NCBI GenBank assembly: GCA_947462105.1
Contig: CANHNJ010000012.1
Location: 1 to 64,000 of the forward strand
Direction: 5' to 3'
Source of the DNA: Alphaproteobacteria bacterium
GTDB lineage: Bacteria > Pseudomonadota > Alphaproteobacteria > Micropepsales > Micropepsaceae
DNA length: 64,000 nucleotides
The translations under genes were made by a program, and so were the position numbers. The notes below the pieces were generated by a model. The model was not told the origin of the DNA. It was given only the letters and a program-made list of their open reading frames with translations, and searched no databases. Below, piece by piece: positions 43,123-55,547 of the stretch; position 1 is the stretch's first letter, and each line of letters starts with the position of its first letter.

Positions 43123-43410
43123 CTCGCCTCTCCATTGGCGGCGCCGGATGGCGCCGCGTTTCCCCACATCACCTGGTTGTGTCCGGTGATGCTTCTGTTG
43201 TTCGGGAATTTCCGTTGCGCGGGTGCAAACGATCTTCCGGACCGATCACTCGGCGCCGTAGGTCACGGTTGCTCTCGCAGATCCCCTTCGTGCGTGGGGC
43301 CTGTTAGAGCAAAAAAATCGGTTTCAGAAAAGGTAATTGCCTGTGTGCAGTGCAGCAACGAAAGGTGCAGTGCGGTCCAAATGGTCGCGCTGCGGCGATG
43401 CTGACGCGGC

Positions 43411-43776
43411 CTATTTATTCCAGGTCGAGGCAACGTGGTCGGGATCGTCCTGCGAGCTGCGTTCGGAGAGCAGGAAGTCGAAATAGCCGCAGGTTCTGCC
43501 GCCGGGATATTCGCGGCAGATGGTCGGGCGCGCCGTGTAAATGGTGCAGCCGCGCTTTTCCGTATCGAAGAAGCGGCAGATGCGGCCGAAATGCTCATCG
43601 TCCTTGCGGCGCATGGCATAGGGCTCGTCGCCCTCGACCTTGGTGAACTTCTTGCGCGCGTCCTTGAAGGACAGGCCGAAATGATCGGCCAGCCGCTCCA
43701 CATCGCGCTTCTTGAGGGGGATCACCGGGTAGGAGCAGCAATAACCCGGACACTTCGAACAATTATAGACCGCCAC
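43411..43776 (-). CDS. YkgJ family CxxCxxCC metal-binding protein
   Basis: 121 residues from a GTG at 43776 (AGGG 6 nt upstream). The Cys cluster CSKCPGYCC opens the protein, with further Cys in RICRFFD, RGCTIY, ICREYPG and TCGYF, the YkgJ/UPF0153 arrangement that is predicted to bind Zn or an Fe-S cluster. Function is not known. It has no operon partner: the permease gene is downstream on the same strand after 288 bp. Confidence 0.85.
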   Translation of the reverse strand: MAVYNCSKCPGYCCSYPVIPLKKRDVERLADHFGLSFKDARKKFTKVEGDEPYAMRRKDDEHFGRICRFFDTEKRGCTIYTARPTICREYPGGRTCGYFDFLLSERSSQDDPDHVASTWNK

Positions 43777-44198
43777 GATGCCCTGCGCGTGATGCTGCTT
43801 CGACCCTTATAACGTGAGGCGGCTCGCATGGTGTGGCCATGTCGTCGCGCCGTCATCCAGGCTTGTGGAGAAGCCCTGCGGCTCGCTTCGGTGGGCCCCC
43901 GGTGCGCCGGGTCGCCGCGCCCAGCGGGCGCCCGTCTTGGGGCAAGCCGTAAAACATAATTAAGTTCATGATTATGCTTGATATTTATAGAAATTCAGAC
44001 CCGCGTCATTTCTGCGATTGGCTCGCAACATGCCAAAGGATCGCAGGCCACGCACATCTGTCATGTTGCGCCGCAAATGGCGGCATGGTGACATAGCGCG
44101 TAAATCTAATAAGAAGCGGGCAAATTCCCTGTGCCTTCCCTCAGCTTAGGGGGCGGGACGGGTATTCATGCCCGCGATAGGCACTTTTGGGGTTTAGT
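43777..44198. other. Long intergenic region upstream of gltB
   Basis: The left half is GC-rich and repeat-like (GGGCCCCCGGTGCGCCGGG, GCGCCCAGCGGGCGC). An AT-rich island at about 43945-43995 stands out from the rest of the window and includes TTCATG, 16 nt, TATAGA, a possible sigma-70 promoter for gltBD. No gene is seen. A regulator site for nitrogen control would be expected here, but I cannot point to a clear operator. Confidence 0.5.
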
Positions 44199-48835: not shown

Positions 48836-50287
48836 ATGGGAAAAATCACAGGCTTCCTCGAGATCGACCGGCTGGATCGCGGCTATGAAAAGCCCGACAC
48901 GCGCCTGCACAACTACAAGGAATTCGTCCATCCGCTGCCCTATGCGGAAGTGGGCCGCCAGGCGGCGCGCTGCATGGATTGCGGCATTCCCTTCTGTCAC
49001 AATGGCTGCCCGGTCAACAATCTGATCCCGGACTGGAACAACCTGGTCTATCGCGACCAGTGGCGCAGTGCCCTCGAGACGCTGCACTCCACCAACAACT
49101 TCCCGGAATTCACCGGCCGCGTTTGCCCCGCGCCTTGCGAGTCCAGTTGCACGCTCAACATCCAGGACACGCCGGTCACCATCAAGACCATCGAATGCCA
49201 GATCGTCGATCGTGGCTGGGAAGAAGGCTGGATCCAGCCGGTGCTGGCGCCCAGTAAGAGCGGCAAGACGGTGGCGGTGGTGGGTTCGGGCCCGGCGGGC
49301 CTGGCCTGCGCCCAGCAACTGGCGCGCGCCGGTCATTCGGTGACGCTGTTCGAAAAGAGCGACCGCATCGGCGGCCTGCTCCGTTACGGCATTCCCGATT
49401 TCAAGATGGAAAAGCATCCCATCGACCGCCGCATGCGCCAGATGGAGGCCGAAGGCGTGATCTTCCGTCCGGGCGTCGAGGTTGGCGCCGGCACCTCGGT
49501 GCAGCAGCTTCTCACCGACTATGATGCGCTGGTGATGTCGGGTGGCGCCGAAGCGCCGCGCGACCTGGCCGTGCAGAACCGCGAACTGGATGGCATCCAT
49601 TTCGCGATGGACTTCCTCACCCAGCAGAACAAGCGGGTGGCGGGTGATGCCGAGGAAAAGGCGGCCCCGAACGGAACGCTGACCGCCAAGGGAAAGCATG
49701 TCGTGGTGATCGGCGGTGGCGATACCGGCTCGGACTGCATTGGCACCTCCAACCGTCATGGCGCGCTATCGGTGACGCAGCTGGAAATCATGCCCAAGCC
49801 GCCGGCGAAGGAAAACAAGCAGCTGGTGTGGCCCGACTGGCCCCTGAAGCTGCGCACCTCCTCGTCGCATGACGAGGGTGCGGGCCGTGACTGGGCCGTC
49901 TCGGCCAAGCGTGCTGTCGGCGAGAACGGCAAGATCACGGGTCTTGAGTGCGTTCGCGTCGAGTGGAAGCTGGGCGATGGTGGCAAGATGAACATGGTCG
50001 ATGTCCCGGGCAGCGAATTCACCCTGAAGGCAGATCTGGTGCTGCTGGCGATGGGCTTTGTCGGCACGCGCAAGGCTGGCCTGGTGGAGCAGGCGGGCGT
50101 GGCGCTGGATCCGCGCGGCAATGTTGCGGCCAATACCGCCGACTACAAGAGCAGCCAGGACAAGGTCTTTGCCTGTGGCGACATGCGCCGGGGCCAGTCC
50201 CTCGTCGTATGGGCGATCCGCGAAGGCCGCCAGTGCGCGCGCTCGGTGGATGAATTCCTGATGGGAAGTACACAATTGCCGCGCTAA
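48836..50287 (+). CDS. gltD: Glutamate synthase (NADPH) small subunit
   Basis: 483 residues. N-terminal Cys motifs C46, C49, C54 and C58 ([13 protein letters not shown]) and CPAPCESSC hold the 4Fe-4S clusters. The FAD site is [19 protein letters not shown] and the NADPH site [12 protein letters not shown]. It passes electrons from NADPH to GltB. Translation is probably coupled to gltB (5 nt gap). It converges with the exopolysaccharide locus. Confidence 0.97.
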
Positions 50288-50310: not shown

Positions 50311-51325
50311 CTAACTTGCCAGCACCAGTCCGACCGGCGCCGCGCTGGCGTTTTGCAACGCCTGCGTCGCATGGACCAGCGAACGCGCCTGCAGCTTGTC
50401 GCGCCGCGACACCAGCAGCGTGGCGTCGGCGTGGCGCGCGATCAGCGATGCATCGGGCCCCGAAAGCGTGGGCCCGCAATCCAGGATCACGAAATCACAG
50501 GCATCGCGCAGGATATCAATCAGCCGCGCCATCTGGGGTGACGCGAACATGGTGGCGGCGTTGGTGGGCCGCGCCTTCAGCGTCAGCAGGAAGGCCTGGC
50601 CGCGTGGGTCCTTCACCAGCGCATCGTTCAGCGTCACCGCGCCGCTCAGCACTTCCAGCAGGCCGGCGCTGCCGTCGGCGCCCAGCGCGGCGGCGGTGCG
50701 GTGCGCCGGATCGCAATCGATGATGATGGTCTTTTTGCCCATGCGCGCCGCAGCGCGGGCCATCGCCACCGCGATCACGCTCTTGGCATCGCCGGGCTCG
50801 GGCGCGGTCAGTGCCACCACCGAACCTTCGCCGCCGCGCTACTCCAGCTGGCGCAGCAGCGAGACGGTGGCGTGGGCGAAGCGGCTGGAAGGCCAGTCCA
50901 CCACATAGTCGGCGGCCTTGAGTGAGCCGGTATTGCTGATCTCGCCCAGGATGGGCGGTCCATGCCATTCCACGTCGGCGGTGGCGGGCAGGCGGCGCGC
51001 CAGCCGTCCTTGCGCCGTGCCGTTGCGGCGCATGGCGCGTGGTCGCAGCAGGTAGCCGAACTTTTCCAGCAGCAGCGCCAGCAGCGTCCCCAGCATCAGG
51101 CCCAGCGGCAGCGCTGCGCCGATGATCATCTTGCGCTTGGGCGATGCGGGCGATTGCGGCACGGCGGCGGGGCTGAGCAGGCGCGCCTCGGTGGTCAGCG
51201 CCGAGTCCTGGTCCTGCGCGTTGCGCAGGCGGCCGATGAAGGCTTCATAGGCGGTGCGGGTGGAGGTGGCGTTGGCTTCCATCGACGCCAGCTCGCCGTG
51301 CGCCAGGCTCTGGCTGGCCGCATCA
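50311..51325 (-). pseudogene. Wzc-type chain-length determinant/tyrosine kinase, 5'-truncated, with internal stop
   Basis: Two open stretches in the same frame (down to 50839 and from 50838 to 50311) are interrupted only by TAG at 50839-50841. Upstream part: the end of the Wzz/Wzc coiled coil (SLAHGELASMEANATSTRTA), a membrane segment (MIIGAALPLGLMLGTLLALLLE) and the linker to the kinase. Downstream part: the BY-kinase domain with Walker A in PEPGDAKS, Walker A' in TIIIDCDP and Walker B FVILDCGP. The missing residue reads like a Trp (TGG to TAG) between LLRQLE and RGGEGS. The N-terminal Wzz domain is gone: sequence before about 51325 belongs to a flippase in another frame. A GTG at 50820 with GAAGG could restart a free kinase domain. 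Confidence 0.75.
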
Positions 51326-52127
51326 GCAGCATGCCCAGCGCCGGCAGCGCGAAGGCGCCGGGACCGGCGATCAGGGTGACGAGATAGGCATGGGCATTGA
51401 GCGTGGCTTCGGTCAGCGCCACGCCCAGCAGCGACCAGCCGGTGAGTTCGCGGAAGATCGGGAAATAGGCTTTGAGGCGGCCCTTGCGCAGCGCCTGCCA
51501 CTGGCCGAGGAAGAAGGGCTTGCCGAAGGGCAGGAAGCTCAGCAGCGATGCCAGCAGCAGGAGCTGGCCGCCACGCGCCAGCGTCGTGGTCCGGGTGAAT
51601 TCCATTATCCCCAGGCCGATGACGATGATGACGCTATAGACCAGGTCGGACAGGATCGCCGACACCATGCGGTTTTCGACATAGGCCAGCGCGCGGGCGA
51701 ACCAGCGATAGCCGAACAGCGCGCCGAACAGCGCCAGCGGCACCGTCTCGGCCATGCCCGCGCCACTGAACAGCAGCAGCGCGCCGATCAGCAGCGTGAA
51801 GAGGACGCTGACCGCCAGGCTCATCTTGAAGCAGGCGTTGGTGTCGCGCTTCTCGCCGGCAATGACGCTGCGGGTGGCGGGCAGCACGAAGCCCGCGCCG
51901 GCGATGCTCACGGCGAAGGCGCCGATGATCAATACGAAGGAGAAGAGGCCGAACTTGTCGGCGGTCAGGTCACGCAGGAAGACGACCGAGGCGATGAAAT
52001 GCGCCCCCGACACCGCCACCAGTCCCATCGTGGAAACGCCATAGCGCCAGGCAAGCGCCAGCAACGCTTGCAGCCGCCCGCTTTGTGGGGACGGCGCCAG
52101 GCCCAGGGCGGATGCCGGCAGTGACAT
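51195..52127 (-). pseudogene. Polysaccharide flippase (Wzx-like), 3'-truncated by deletion
   Basis: The first about 270 residues are a normal MATE-like oligosaccharide flippase: the start MSLPASALGLAPSPQSG, then eight or so membrane segments, up to AGPGAFALPALGMLLMRP. After about 51317 the frame enters the wzc remnant out of phase and yields an Arg/Pro-rich tail (WKPTPPPPAPPMKPSS) that ends at 51195. Flippases have 12 to 14 segments, so a third or more of the protein is lost and function is unlikely. This junction, with wzc on the same strand, is best explained by one deletion that removed the flippase end, any genes between, and the wzc start. Confidence 0.75.
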
Positions 52128-52139
52128 GAACGGTCTTTC

Positions 52140-53027
52140 TTACGCGGCGAGAACCTGCAGGTCCGCTTCGGCCACGGTGACAGGTGCTTCGACCGCCCCA
52201 TTGGTACGGGTCAAAAGTAAAAAAACCGCCAGCGGATTGGTCACGGCATAACGCCAGAACAACCTTTTGGGCTCGCGGGCCAGGCGGTAGAGCCATTCCA
52301 GGCCCGTCGCCTGCATCCAGTCCGGCGCGCGCTTGTAGGCGCCGGTGACGAAATTGAAGCAGCCGCCACAGGTGACCAGCCAGCCGGCCTTGAGCCGGTA
52401 CTTGTTGCGCACGGCGAATTCATATTCGCGCGGCACCGACAGGCCGCCCCAGATCACATCGGGCTGGGTGAGGTTAATTTCGTCAACGATATCGTCTTCT
52501 TCATATTCGCTGAAATAGCCGTGCAGGCGGCCGACAATCTGAATTCCAGGATAGGTTTCGGAAAGAATCCGCGCCGACTCCGCATTGGCTTCCTCGGTCG
52601 CACCCAGCAGGAAGAAACGCAGGCCATGTTCGGCGCCAATCTTGGAAGCGTCACGGATGAAGTCGGTGGTGGCGCTGCGCTCGGGAATCGGCGTGGCGGT
52701 CAACAGGCGCGAGGCGAACACCGCCGCCTGGCCATCGGCATGGATGATGTCGGCCTGGGCGAAGGTGGCGCCGAAAGTCTTGTCCTGCGCCGCCAGCGCG
52801 ATGGCATGCCCGTTGGACGCAAAGACCAGCTTGGGCGGATGGATGTCGGTGCGCCGCGCCGCCAGGCAGTCGGCGAGCATCAGGCGGGCCATCTCGTCGC
52901 GCGACAGGCAAGCGGTCTTGAGGCCACCCAGCATGATCTCGGCATAGCTGTCATTGGCGGCGCTTTGCGGCGCCGTGAAGACTTCGTATTGCGGCGGCAG
53001 TTCCGGGGAGTTGATCGAGGTGCGCAT
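52140..53027 (-). CDS. WecG/TagA/CpsF family glycosyltransferase
   Basis: 295 residues. The GT26 core starts near residue 75 with PKLVFASNGHAIALAAQ, continues through ADGQAAVFASRLL and FFLLGATEEANAESARIL, and ends GWLVTCGGCFNFVTGAYKRAPDWM, the family signature end. GT26 enzymes add the second sugar (for example N-acetylmannosaminuronate or glucosyl) to a lipid-linked exopolysaccharide unit at the membrane. It overlaps the sugar transferase by one base (TGATG), so it acts on that enzyme's product. Start ATG 53027. Confidence 0.88.
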   Translation of the reverse strand: MRTSINSPELPPQYEVFTAPQSAANDSYAEIMLGGLKTACLSRDEMARLMLADCLAARRTDIHPPKLVFASNGHAIALAAQDKTFGATFAQADIIHADGQAAVFASRLLTATPIPERSATTDFIRDASKIGAEHGLRFFLLGATEEANAESARILSETYPGIQIVGRLHGYFSEYEEDDIVDEINLTQPDVIWGGLSVPREYEFAVRNKYRLKAGWLVTCGGCFNFVTGAYKRAPDWMQATGLEWLYRLAREPKRLFWRYAVTNPLAVFLLLTRTNGAVEAPVTVAEADLQVLAA

Positions 53028-53680
53028 CAGTGGGCGTTCCTGCCGCTGAGCACGGCCAGCGGGGTGCGCAGCAGGATCAGCAGGTCGTGGGTGACGGTGG
53101 TGTGCTCGACATACCAATTGTCCAGCGCGATGCGCTTTTCCATGTCGGCAAGTTCGGGCGTCTCGCCGCGCGCGCCATTCACCTGGGCCCAGCCGGTGAT
53201 GCCGGGCTTGACGCGCTGGCGTTGCGCATAGGCGGGAATGCGGGCGCCGTAATATTCGTCATGGGCGATGGCGTGGGGGCGCGGGCCCACCAGGCTCATC
53301 TCGCCGGACAGCACATTGAAGAGCTGCGGCAGCTCGTCGATGCTGGAGCTGCGCAGGAAGCGGCCGATGCGGGCGTCGTTCGCCGTCGCCTGCACCACAT
53401 TGTCACCATCCTCCAGCACGTGCATGGAGCGGAATTTCAGGATGCCGAAGACCTCGCCATTGCGGCCGTGGCGGCGCTGGCAGAACAGCACGGGGCCACG
53501 GGAATCCAGCACGATGGCCAGGCTGACCAGGGCCAGCAGCGGCAGCAGGAACAGGATGGCGGTCAGGCTGACGGCGATGTCCAGCACGCGCTTGGCGTCG
53601 AGTGCCGGTGCGCGCGAGGGTACCCAGAGGCGCAAGTCCTCGAAGGTGGAAAGGGCGGGGGTCTGATCCTGAATCGGCAC
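53027..53680 (-). CDS. Undecaprenyl-phosphate sugar-1-phosphate transferase
   Basis: 217 residues from a GTG at 53680. It is a monotopic phosphoglycosyltransferase core of the WcaJ/PssY type: one hydrophobic segment (about 32-57), then FCQRRHGRNGEVFGILKFRSM, the catalytic Asp in SSSIDELPQLFNVL, GEMSLVGPRPH and GITGWAQVNGARG. It starts exopolysaccharide synthesis by loading the first sugar on the lipid carrier. It lacks the extra N-terminal membrane helices of long WbaP-type enzymes. Gene order transferase-GT26-flippase-wzc fits an EPS biosynthesis operon. Confidence 0.92.
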   Translation of the reverse strand: MPIQDQTPALSTFEDLRLWVPSRAPALDAKRVLDIAVSLTAILFLLPLLALVSLAIVLDSRGPVLFCQRRHGRNGEVFGILKFRSMHVLEDGDNVVQATANDARIGRFLRSSSIDELPQLFNVLSGEMSLVGPRPHAIAHDEYYGARIPAYAQRQRVKPGITGWAQVNGARGETPELADMEKRIALDNWYVEHTTVTHDLLILLRTPLAVLSGRNAH

Positions 53681-53847: not shown

Positions 53848-54879
53848 TCAGGCCAGGGACGCCTGCCAGGACCGGAGCCGGGCGTTGCCCGCGAAGAGCA
53901 GGGGCACCAGGGAGGCGATGTGGTTGTCCCGGGGCCCCAGGCCATAGCGGGGCAGCAGCCAGGGATTGCCCCCCGCCGACAGGGAGCCGGACAGGGTGGT
54001 GAACGCGTGGCTGAAGCCGGCATCGCGTACCGCCTGCCACGCCTTGGCGCCCACATCCGGCTTGTTGCCGAAGGGATAGGCGAAGAAACGGCAGGGGCCG
54101 ACTTCCCGTTCAATCACGGCCTTGGCGCCTGCCGCTTGCTGGCGCAGATATTCTTCGTCCTGCGCCGCATGCATCGGCCAATGGGTGTCGGCATGCGCGC
54201 CGATGGTGACGCCGCGCTTGGCCAGCGCGCGCACTTCGTTCCAGTCCAGGAAATGTTCAGAAGAGAAATTCTCCACCAGCGCTTCCAGCGCGCCGGGTGC
54301 AAAGGCGCTGCGCATCATCGCCAGGGCTTCCTCGGCCTTCGCGGCGGGCAGGAAGCGTAGATGGTCCGAGCCCAATCGTGCCCATTTCATGCGGCTTTCG
54401 TCGCCGTCCAGCCGTACCACTTCGGCGAAATGCGGCAGGCGATATGCGCCGCGCGGCGCGCGCAGGAAGAACAGCCAGGTAAGAAAGACGGGATTGGGCA
54501 GGCCGCTGCCGATATGGGCGGTGCTGACAAACAGCGTCCAGGGCATGCGGAATTCGTCCAGGATGTCGGCCGCCACGCCCAGCGTGTTGCGATAGCCGTC
54601 ATCCGACATCAGGAAGAGGCTGCGGCTGTACTTCTCCGGCTGGGCCATGACATCGTCGATGGCGTCCAGCGGCAGGACGTCGAAATCAAACTGCTTCAGC
54701 GCCGACAGGATGGCGCGGAAGTGCGCGACCTCGTGGTGATTGGTCTGCAGTTGCGGGTCGCGGGTGCGGCGCTCGACGCCATGAAAGAAGAGCGCGGCAG
54801 GCTGGCCGGTACGGCGCAGCGCGGCCGGGGGTATCCACCGGCCGAGTTCACGCGCGATCCGTCCAGCGGCAAGACCCAT
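53848..54879 (-). CDS. Polysaccharide deacetylase family protein
   Basis: 343 residues. The NodB-type metal site is LMSDDGYR (catalytic and metal Asp), GAHADTHWPM (two His) and RFFAYPFG (the Arg/Pro motif 3), so it is a CE4 deacetylase. There is no clear signal peptide, only a hydrophobic helix-poor start. It probably trims acetyl groups from the nascent or exported polysaccharide of the adjacent EPS locus. The link is inferred from position. It is separated from the sugar transferase by 167 bp that hold no gene. Confidence 0.88.
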   Translation of the reverse strand: MGLAAGRIARELGRWIPPAALRRTGQPAALFFHGVERRTRDPQLQTNHHEVAHFRAILSALKQFDFDVLPLDAIDDVMAQPEKYSRSLFLMSDDGYRNTLGVAADILDEFRMPWTLFVSTAHIGSGLPNPVFLTWLFFLRAPRGAYRLPHFAEVVRLDGDESRMKWARLGSDHLRFLPAAKAEEALAMMRSAFAPGALEALVENFSSEHFLDWNEVRALAKRGVTIGAHADTHWPMHAAQDEEYLRQQAAGAKAVIEREVGPCRFFAYPFGNKPDVGAKAWQAVRDAGFSHAFTTLSGSLSAGGNPWLLPRYGLGPRDNHIASLVPLLFAGNARLRSWQASLA

Positions 54880-54932: not shown

Positions 54933-55547
54933 TCAGCCCATGCCCAGCGAGGCGCTGAGGGCGTGGAAGGCCCGCATGACCAGCCCGGGGAAGGCGATGA
55001 TGGCGACCGCCCAGATGGCCGTGGCGGCGGCGTTGGGGATCTGGAAGTGCCAGAACTTCACTTCGCTCATCCCCGCCACCAGCGGCACGATGGAACGGAA
55101 GGGGCCGGTGAAGCGGCCGATAAAGACGGCCCAGACCTCCCAGCGGCGGAAGAAATCCAGGCCCTTTTCCAGTTGGGCTTCGAAATGGCGGAATGGCCAT
55201 AAGTGTATAATCTTATGGTGGTATTTCACGCCGATGGCATAGCAGATCCAGTCGCCCGCCATCGAGCCCAGAAAGGCGCCCGTGATGGCCGGAAAGATGG
55301 AGATGTGGCTGGCCTCGATCACCCCGCCCATCGTCAGCAGCAGGACGGTGCCGGGGATCAGGGCGGAAATGCCGACAAACGATTCCGTGAAGGCGATGAT
55401 GGCGGCGATGGGAAAGCACCAGAGGGGATGGGCGCGCGCGGTTTCTTGCACGAAGATGAACAGGTCGTGAAACAGCTCCTGAAACACGCTTTGTCCCAAT
55501 TCTTGTCCGGGCCCGGGCCCGGTATTGCCGCGAAGGTCAGGCTGCAC
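54933..55547 (-). CDS. DedA family membrane protein
   Basis: 204 residues, 4-5 membrane segments. Family motifs: FTESFVGISALIPGTVLLL, GAFLGSMAGDWICYAIG and the Arg-rich loop FIGRFTGPFRSIVPLVAGM. DedA proteins are lipid-carrier scramblases, and some recycle undecaprenyl phosphate. That would fit beside polysaccharide genes. The start is uncertain: GTG 55547 or GTG 55487. Both lack a strong ribosome binding site. It is divergent from the RND adaptor gene. Confidence 0.88.
   Translation of the reverse strand: MQPDLRGNTGPGPGQELGQSVFQELFHDLFIFVQETARAHPLWCFPIAAIIAFTESFVGISALIPGTVLLLTMGGVIEASHISIFPAITGAFLGSMAGDWICYAIGVKYHHKIIHLWPFRHFEAQLEKGLDFFRRWEVWAVFIGRFTGPFRSIVPLVAGMSEVKFWHFQIPNAAATAIWAVAIIAFPGLVMRAFHALSASLGMG

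Follow-up and report, generated by a model that had tools for sequence, protein, structure and literature searches.

The stretch of DNA analysed here (64,000 nucleotides, referred to as the window) very probably, at odds of roughly nine in ten, carries an exopolysaccharide locus of the Wzx/Wzy type that has been scarred by a deletion. A single deletion of about 5-9 kb, a size taken from relatives, would have joined codon ~270 of a flippase gene to codon ~390 of the ~750 codons of a wzc gene. It would have removed the end of the flippase, two GT2 genes, probably the genes for the Wzy polymerase and the GH10 hydrolase, and the N-terminal half of Wzc, leaving a flippase that is cut short and ends in a nonsense tail, and a piece of Wzc that was split further by a TAG codon. 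The window belongs to contig C12 of a draft genome (G000; 2.17 Mb, 41 contigs, 98% complete), and the search covered 61 genomes including this one.

Junction and gene remnants

The near edge of the locus is marked by gltD (48836..50287, plus strand), a convergent neighbour, and the far edge by a gene for a DedA/VTT membrane protein (54933..55547, minus strand; PF09335, E=7.9e-17), which borders the polysaccharide locus in many relatives. Between them, all on the minus strand, three genes are complete: a full-length polysaccharide deacetylase (53848..54879; PF01522, E=3.9e-12), with 343 aa against 339 aa in G007; an initiating sugar-phosphate transferase of the Bac_transf family (53027..53680; PF02397, 1-178 of 179, E=1.1e-61); and a WecG/TagA/CpsF (GT26) glycosyltransferase (52140..53030; PF03808, 1-168 of 168, E=3.4e-51). 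They are followed by the 5' 270 codons of a Wzx-type flippase (51318..52127, minus strand), whose C-terminal third is gone. This part opens a chimeric ORF of 310 aa (51195..52127, minus strand), in which LPALGMLLMRP is followed by about 40 unrelated, out-of-frame residues up to a stop at 51195. When a 437-aa flippase of a relative was used as query, the match in the window was limited to residues 19-281 and ended at 51309. The flippase family PF01943 stayed below its cut-off in the window (16.1 vs 28.2 bits), while the flippase part used as query matched 28 of the 61 genomes, that is, the own genome and 27 relatives, all of one genus, with 32-53% identity in the relatives and open frames of 279-693 aa.

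From 51312 on, another frame of the minus strand encodes the C-terminal half of Wzc. Its first piece (50842..51312) comprises the periplasmic end and the second membrane segment (GNVR; PF13807, E=2.9e-7; 64% identity to G007), and its second (50311..50838) the ATPase part (AAA_31; PF13614, E=1.3e-10), which stays open to its own stop and has a possible internal GTG start at 50820. An in-frame TAG (50839..50841), a second lesion, stands between the membrane part and the ATPase part. The full Wzc query matched residues 389-745 of 747 in the own genome with one TAG inside. The matching stretch was open at this site in 19/19 relatives (the remnant being read with X at the TAG), a set that includes G001 and G024, which are deletion remnants themselves. 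No internal stops were found in the flippase and ATPase remnants. The window thus lacks both a complete Wzx flippase and a Wzc with a Wzz domain, and beyond the junction a further inactivating mutation was observed in the Wzc remnant (the TAG) and none in the flippase part.

The last flippase-like codons meet the first Wzc-like codons at 51312..51320 (minus strand), where the frame of the chimeric ORF changes; this is inside the range of 51300-51335 given by the initial annotation. Its other claims, that a flippase of normal N-terminal two thirds ends abruptly near residue 271 and that both parts lie on the minus strand, agreed with the ORF list and the 437-aa query. It was also right, by Pfam, about the identity of a Wzc that lacks its N-terminal half in another frame, but placed the start a few bases off (about 51325 instead of 51312), and it passed over the TAG, though the deletion itself stood. 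The observation of fused flippase and Wzc remnants is therefore confirmed as real.

The fuller locus of relatives and the extent of the loss

The distance from the flippase site to the Wzc site in relatives was 4855-8648 bp (median 6026), with the same strand and order in 14/14 relatives that had both sites in one fetched stretch; L027 and L032 (short contigs), L034 (G027) and G007 were left out of this count. L034 holds a flippase copy with no Wzc in the 20 kb fetched, and another copy lies about 8 kb from a wzc in that genome. Because both sites keep one order and strand in all 14, the junction is not a chance encounter of two genes. These spans bear out the earlier proposal that one deletion took out several kilobases and glycosyltransferase genes with them, since the gap of 4.9-8.6 kb includes two GT2 genes. 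Comparison with the full locus of relatives, which had been suggested as a check, found longer orthologues spanning the junction in 14/14, and the same arrangement with an intact protein, feared as a refutation, was seen in none of the relatives read.

Wzc was a single frame of 705-814 aa from stop to stop in 9/9 relatives read, and the flippase frames measured 430-596 aa from stop to stop in 11/11. It is hardly credible, therefore, that the window shows a natural arrangement free of lesions, in which a shorter transporter is intact and co-polymerase and kinase are a split pair. Wzz and the kinase do have genes of their own elsewhere, namely prmF and prmG in the available part of PMC11340318, and the G007 locus has a full Wzc with no flippase or Wzy match. 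However, such an arrangement is absent from the relatives read, by both frame lengths and by the 19/19 relatives without a stop at the TAG site, and the window flippase ends at about 270 codons with an out-of-frame tail.

The gene order in relatives was flippase, GT2, Wzy, GT2, GH10 and Wzc, with some variation. For example, the gap genes of G013 and G011 were GT2, Wzy, GT2 and GH10 by Pfam; in G015, Pfam recognised Wzy, GT2 and GH10, and the first GT2 was assigned from its similarity. In the G035 locus no Wzy match was found and an ATP-grasp gene is present (L045 10295-11500), and in the G079 and G085 loci GH10 and the initiating transferase were not found. As the content varies in this way among relatives, we infer the exact list of lost genes. 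In G007 (L061 1312-8367), the nearest relative with a full Wzc, there was no flippase, Wzy or GH10 match in the locus and an ATP-grasp gene was present. Loci of the G007/G035 type are perhaps a variant with a different export route. In the Wzc ATPase of G030, G015, G011 and G035 (L025, L026, L030, L031), the Walker A lysine is, by eye, seemingly replaced (as in ESRS and ENRS), and inspection of the same proteins by eye showed no tail rich in tyrosine, so judged by their residues these Wzc may not be active tyrosine kinases.

Profile searches for Wzz (PF02706), Wzy (PF04932) and GH10 (PF00331) gave no match in the own genome; the same families matched 8/14, 9/14 and 4/14 control genomes, respectively. 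A GT2b query from G007 returned nothing from the own genome but a weak 32% piece. We had considered that the missing segment moved elsewhere in this genome and rejected it, as no second copy was found with Wzz, Wzy, GH10, full flippase, full Wzc and GT2b queries in a draft that is incomplete. A single copy of a Wza-type protein (PF02563) is located elsewhere in the genome (G000:C4:89562).

From what is known of the pathway, the initiating transferase and GT26 would yield a lipid-linked disaccharide at most, and no polymer would be assembled or exported by this route, the flippase end, the later transferases, the polymerase and the co-polymerase being gone. According to the available part of PMC11340318, colonies remained mucoid when wzx alone or the GH10 gene alone was deleted from the prm cluster, and deletions of wzy, wzz, the kinase gene and wecG abolished the polymer. 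It follows that the loss of Wzy and Wzc is the stronger argument for a null phenotype and that the flippase loss alone is insufficient. The initial annotation held that export may have been lost while sugar transferase, GT26 and deacetylase remained intact. The three genes are indeed complete by Pfam, but the loss is wider than export and, to judge by the genes, is predicted to include later sugar addition, polymerisation and chain-length control. Disruption of cytosolic steps is detrimental via lipid-carrier recycling, as stated in the available part of PMC11813082, so that the leftover genes may not be expressed, may have little activity, or may have been stranded only recently.

Repeated breakage across the genus

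Stretches from 30 relatives, comprising 32 loci, were annotated, and a gltB plus gltD protein tree was built for 30 genomes. On this tree 24 genomes were scored, 12 as intact and 12 as broken (window included), 'intact' meaning that a flippase and a full Wzc were present, whatever else varied. G001, G007, G016, G071, G063 and G068 were left out of the scoring; G036 was scored intact though split over three contigs, and G086 and G090 were scored broken though their contigs end. The earlier description had treated one strain; its deletion holds, and the same locus is broken in 11 further genomes with differing breakpoints. The gltBD tree places G088 nearest to the window genome (SH-aLRT 93, not starred). 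Its deacetylase is broken: residues 1-198 remain, with a frameshift, and are followed by the last few wzc codons before gltD. G092 has GT26 residue ~107 joined to Wzc ~695. G017 kept Wzc 708-747, G014 kept 661-747 in a frameshifted form, and G024 kept 529-747, with the far flank outside the stretch seen. In G091, G089 and G077 DedA and gltD are present and nothing of the locus was detected between them, and in G081 other genes fill this place over 3.9 kb. The contig of G090 starts within wzc (Wzc ~604), and that of G086 breaks off at GT26. IS-like sequence lies at both of these contig ends, the end of L066 (G086) and the start of L059 (G090), and hints at IS-linked deletions. The short peptides at these contig ends are ones that we take to resemble IS3-family OrfA starts; Pfam gave no match for these end peptides (25-27 residues). 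The DedA/VTT gene is still present in the broken relatives G088, G017, G091, G089, G077, G092, G086 and G081. In G066, which was scored intact, a stop within the GT26 match was dismissed as a lesion, since it falls at the third-last residue of the match, the natural end.

At least 8 changes of state were needed on the gltBD tree, and a loss-only reading gave 11 broken groups, with 7/27 inner branches weakly supported. We lean slightly towards the view that, among those members of one alphaproteobacterial genus that have small genomes, one exopolysaccharide locus was lost repeatedly through separate deletions that differ in their endpoints.

The draft of G001 bears on how far the window can be trusted. 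One of its contigs holds the transferase and GT26, and in another the transferase end jumps to Wzc 480; the shared 131 bp (L048 1-131 vs L065 4704-4834) are 99.2% identical. This suggests that the draft holds a deletion allele and a fuller allele, a strain-level polymorphism. If intact and deleted (or differently deleted) strains were collapsed in the own genome as well, the assembler could have joined the sequence over a variable middle, and the scar would be an assembly or binning artefact. The two G001 contigs that share a transferase end, the G086 and G090 contigs that end inside the polysaccharide locus, and an own genome in as many as 41 contigs agree with this. Nevertheless, we regard an artefact as unlikely: gene order and orientation across the join are those of one operon, the Wzc remnant has a second lesion (the TAG), the missing parts that were searched for are nowhere else in the assembly, and comparable losses occur in several relatives with both flanks on one contig.

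For a genuine deletion, the age was approached by substitution counts. Synonymous sites compared with G007 were near saturation (NG86 dS 0.96-1.58), so the argument was built on relative-rate counts and on the number of stops to be expected. The synonymous distance to G088 over three genes was 0.45-0.55 (NG86) and 0.79-0.92 (YN00). Under neutral drift at d=0.22, about half the NG86 distance to G088, the 601 codons of the remnants should have gained 7.8 stops, and one stop or none has P=0.004; the YN00 distance would make this rarer still. With so few stops, the deletion probably happened after the lineage of G088 had split off, so the window genome and G088 probably lost the locus separately. 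The window deletion looks recent and like one of a series of separate losses, its age assuming neutrality and no constraint on the remnants. The GNVR remnant had 16-22 unique changes in G000 vs 5-12 in G007 with 7/7 outgroups. The complete DedA gene likewise had 20-34 vs 11-17 with 6/6 outgroups and gltD showed an excess in G000 over G007 with 6/7, so the GNVR excess speaks weakly for decay. GT26 and the initiating transferase showed no excess of unique changes in G000 compared with G007. At the breakpoint, a few shared bases at most are possible, judged by eye; the relatives are just 42-50% identical in the flippase part, and the parental bases are unreadable. At the G088 join a shared stretch of 6-7 bases, seen by eye, is suggestive.

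The ATPase remnant was not accelerated (11-16 unique changes in the window vs 15-19 in G007, 7 outgroups). It might be argued from this rate, which is no faster than that of the G007 copy, and from a frame open to the end, that this part is kept as a working stand-alone protein starting at the internal GTG 50820 after the TAG; the 3' end of wzc also survives in G024, G090, G014, G092 and G017. However, the G014 piece is frameshifted and those of G092 and G017 match about the last 40-53 residues alone, which argues that the ATPase part is not generally kept. Moreover, the neighbouring gltD may simply limit the reach of viable deletions, and low acceleration is also expected after a recent loss. 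Continued function of the fragment is therefore very unlikely, and we keep to the reading of a decaying remnant.

A short Poly_export lipoprotein-like gene, which some relatives have between gltB and the next gene, had no match in the window (43167-44187), and the Poly_export gene near gltB of G014 carries an in-frame stop. We dropped the idea that this gene was lost together with the locus and claim no coupling, because the stretches fetched from four intact-scored genomes (G008, G013, G070, G015) did not show it either.

Genome size differed between the two classes. Broken genomes measured 1.9-2.9 Mb (completeness-scaled) in 11/12 cases, the exception being G081 with 4.0 Mb and 6% contamination, and intact genomes 2.8-4.3 Mb in 12/12 (Mann-Whitney p=0.0005, with kinship ignored and sizes rounded). 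Independent pairs on starred branches gave no significant result (7 pairs, 4-5 for and 0 against, p 0.0625-0.125) at a size cut of 2.85 Mb that was set after the sizes were seen.

Taken alone, the window is one more deletion scar; with its relatives, it becomes part of a set of differing losses at a fixed address between gltD and the DedA/RND block. If repeated loss is true, the genus would offer natural replicates that show which parts of a lipid-linked glycan pathway are lost early and which linger (initiating transferase, GT26, DedA). Such a set allows a look at the order and tempo of surface polysaccharide loss, and bears on whether half-dismantled lipid-carrier pathways are tolerated.

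Comparison with known systems

Deletion decay of such loci is ordinary. The window, read from its genes, looks like ordinary gene decay and not a new system, somewhat interesting through repetition, because in relatives of the genus parts of this cluster are also gone, with breakpoints that differ. A literature search found no paper on the locus of this genus, although one may exist. In its fuller form, as seen in relatives, the locus resembles the promonan/holdfast kind. It has a parts list in common with the promonan (prm) cluster of freshwater Sphingomonas sp. LM7, as far as the available part of PMC11340318 describes it: initiating transferase, WecG-type GT26, Wzx, Wzy, GT2, GH10, Wzz and kinase. 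In the same available text, Wzz and kinase are separate prm genes and Wza is inside the cluster, whereas Wzc is one protein in the genus studied here. The short Poly_export gene, in contrast to prm, lies across gltBD in at least 6 gltD-linked relatives and beside wzc in G067. The window copy differs from prm in being without the Wzx end, the GT2s, Wzy, GH10 and half of Wzc.

HfsH is the deacetylase of the Caulobacter holdfast pathway. A deacetylase is part of the likeness between that pathway and the window locus, which is broken and known from genes alone. The likeness extends to the initiator, the WecG-family glycosyltransferase (HfsJ) and Wzx/Wzy-type assembly (hfs genes, with HfsE and HfsJ as given in the available part of PMC11340318). 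By analogy with the Und-P sequestration by stalled pathways in E. coli and Shigella (PMC11813082, available part), a locus that retains the early steps but has lost the late ones could trap lipid carrier. Finally, genome streamlining in pelagic freshwater bacteria such as Methylophilaceae (PMC6794327, available part) is alike in that gene loss leads to small genomes; the words 'polysaccharide' and 'deletion' are absent from the available text of that paper, whereas here the deletion breakpoints of one locus can be compared.
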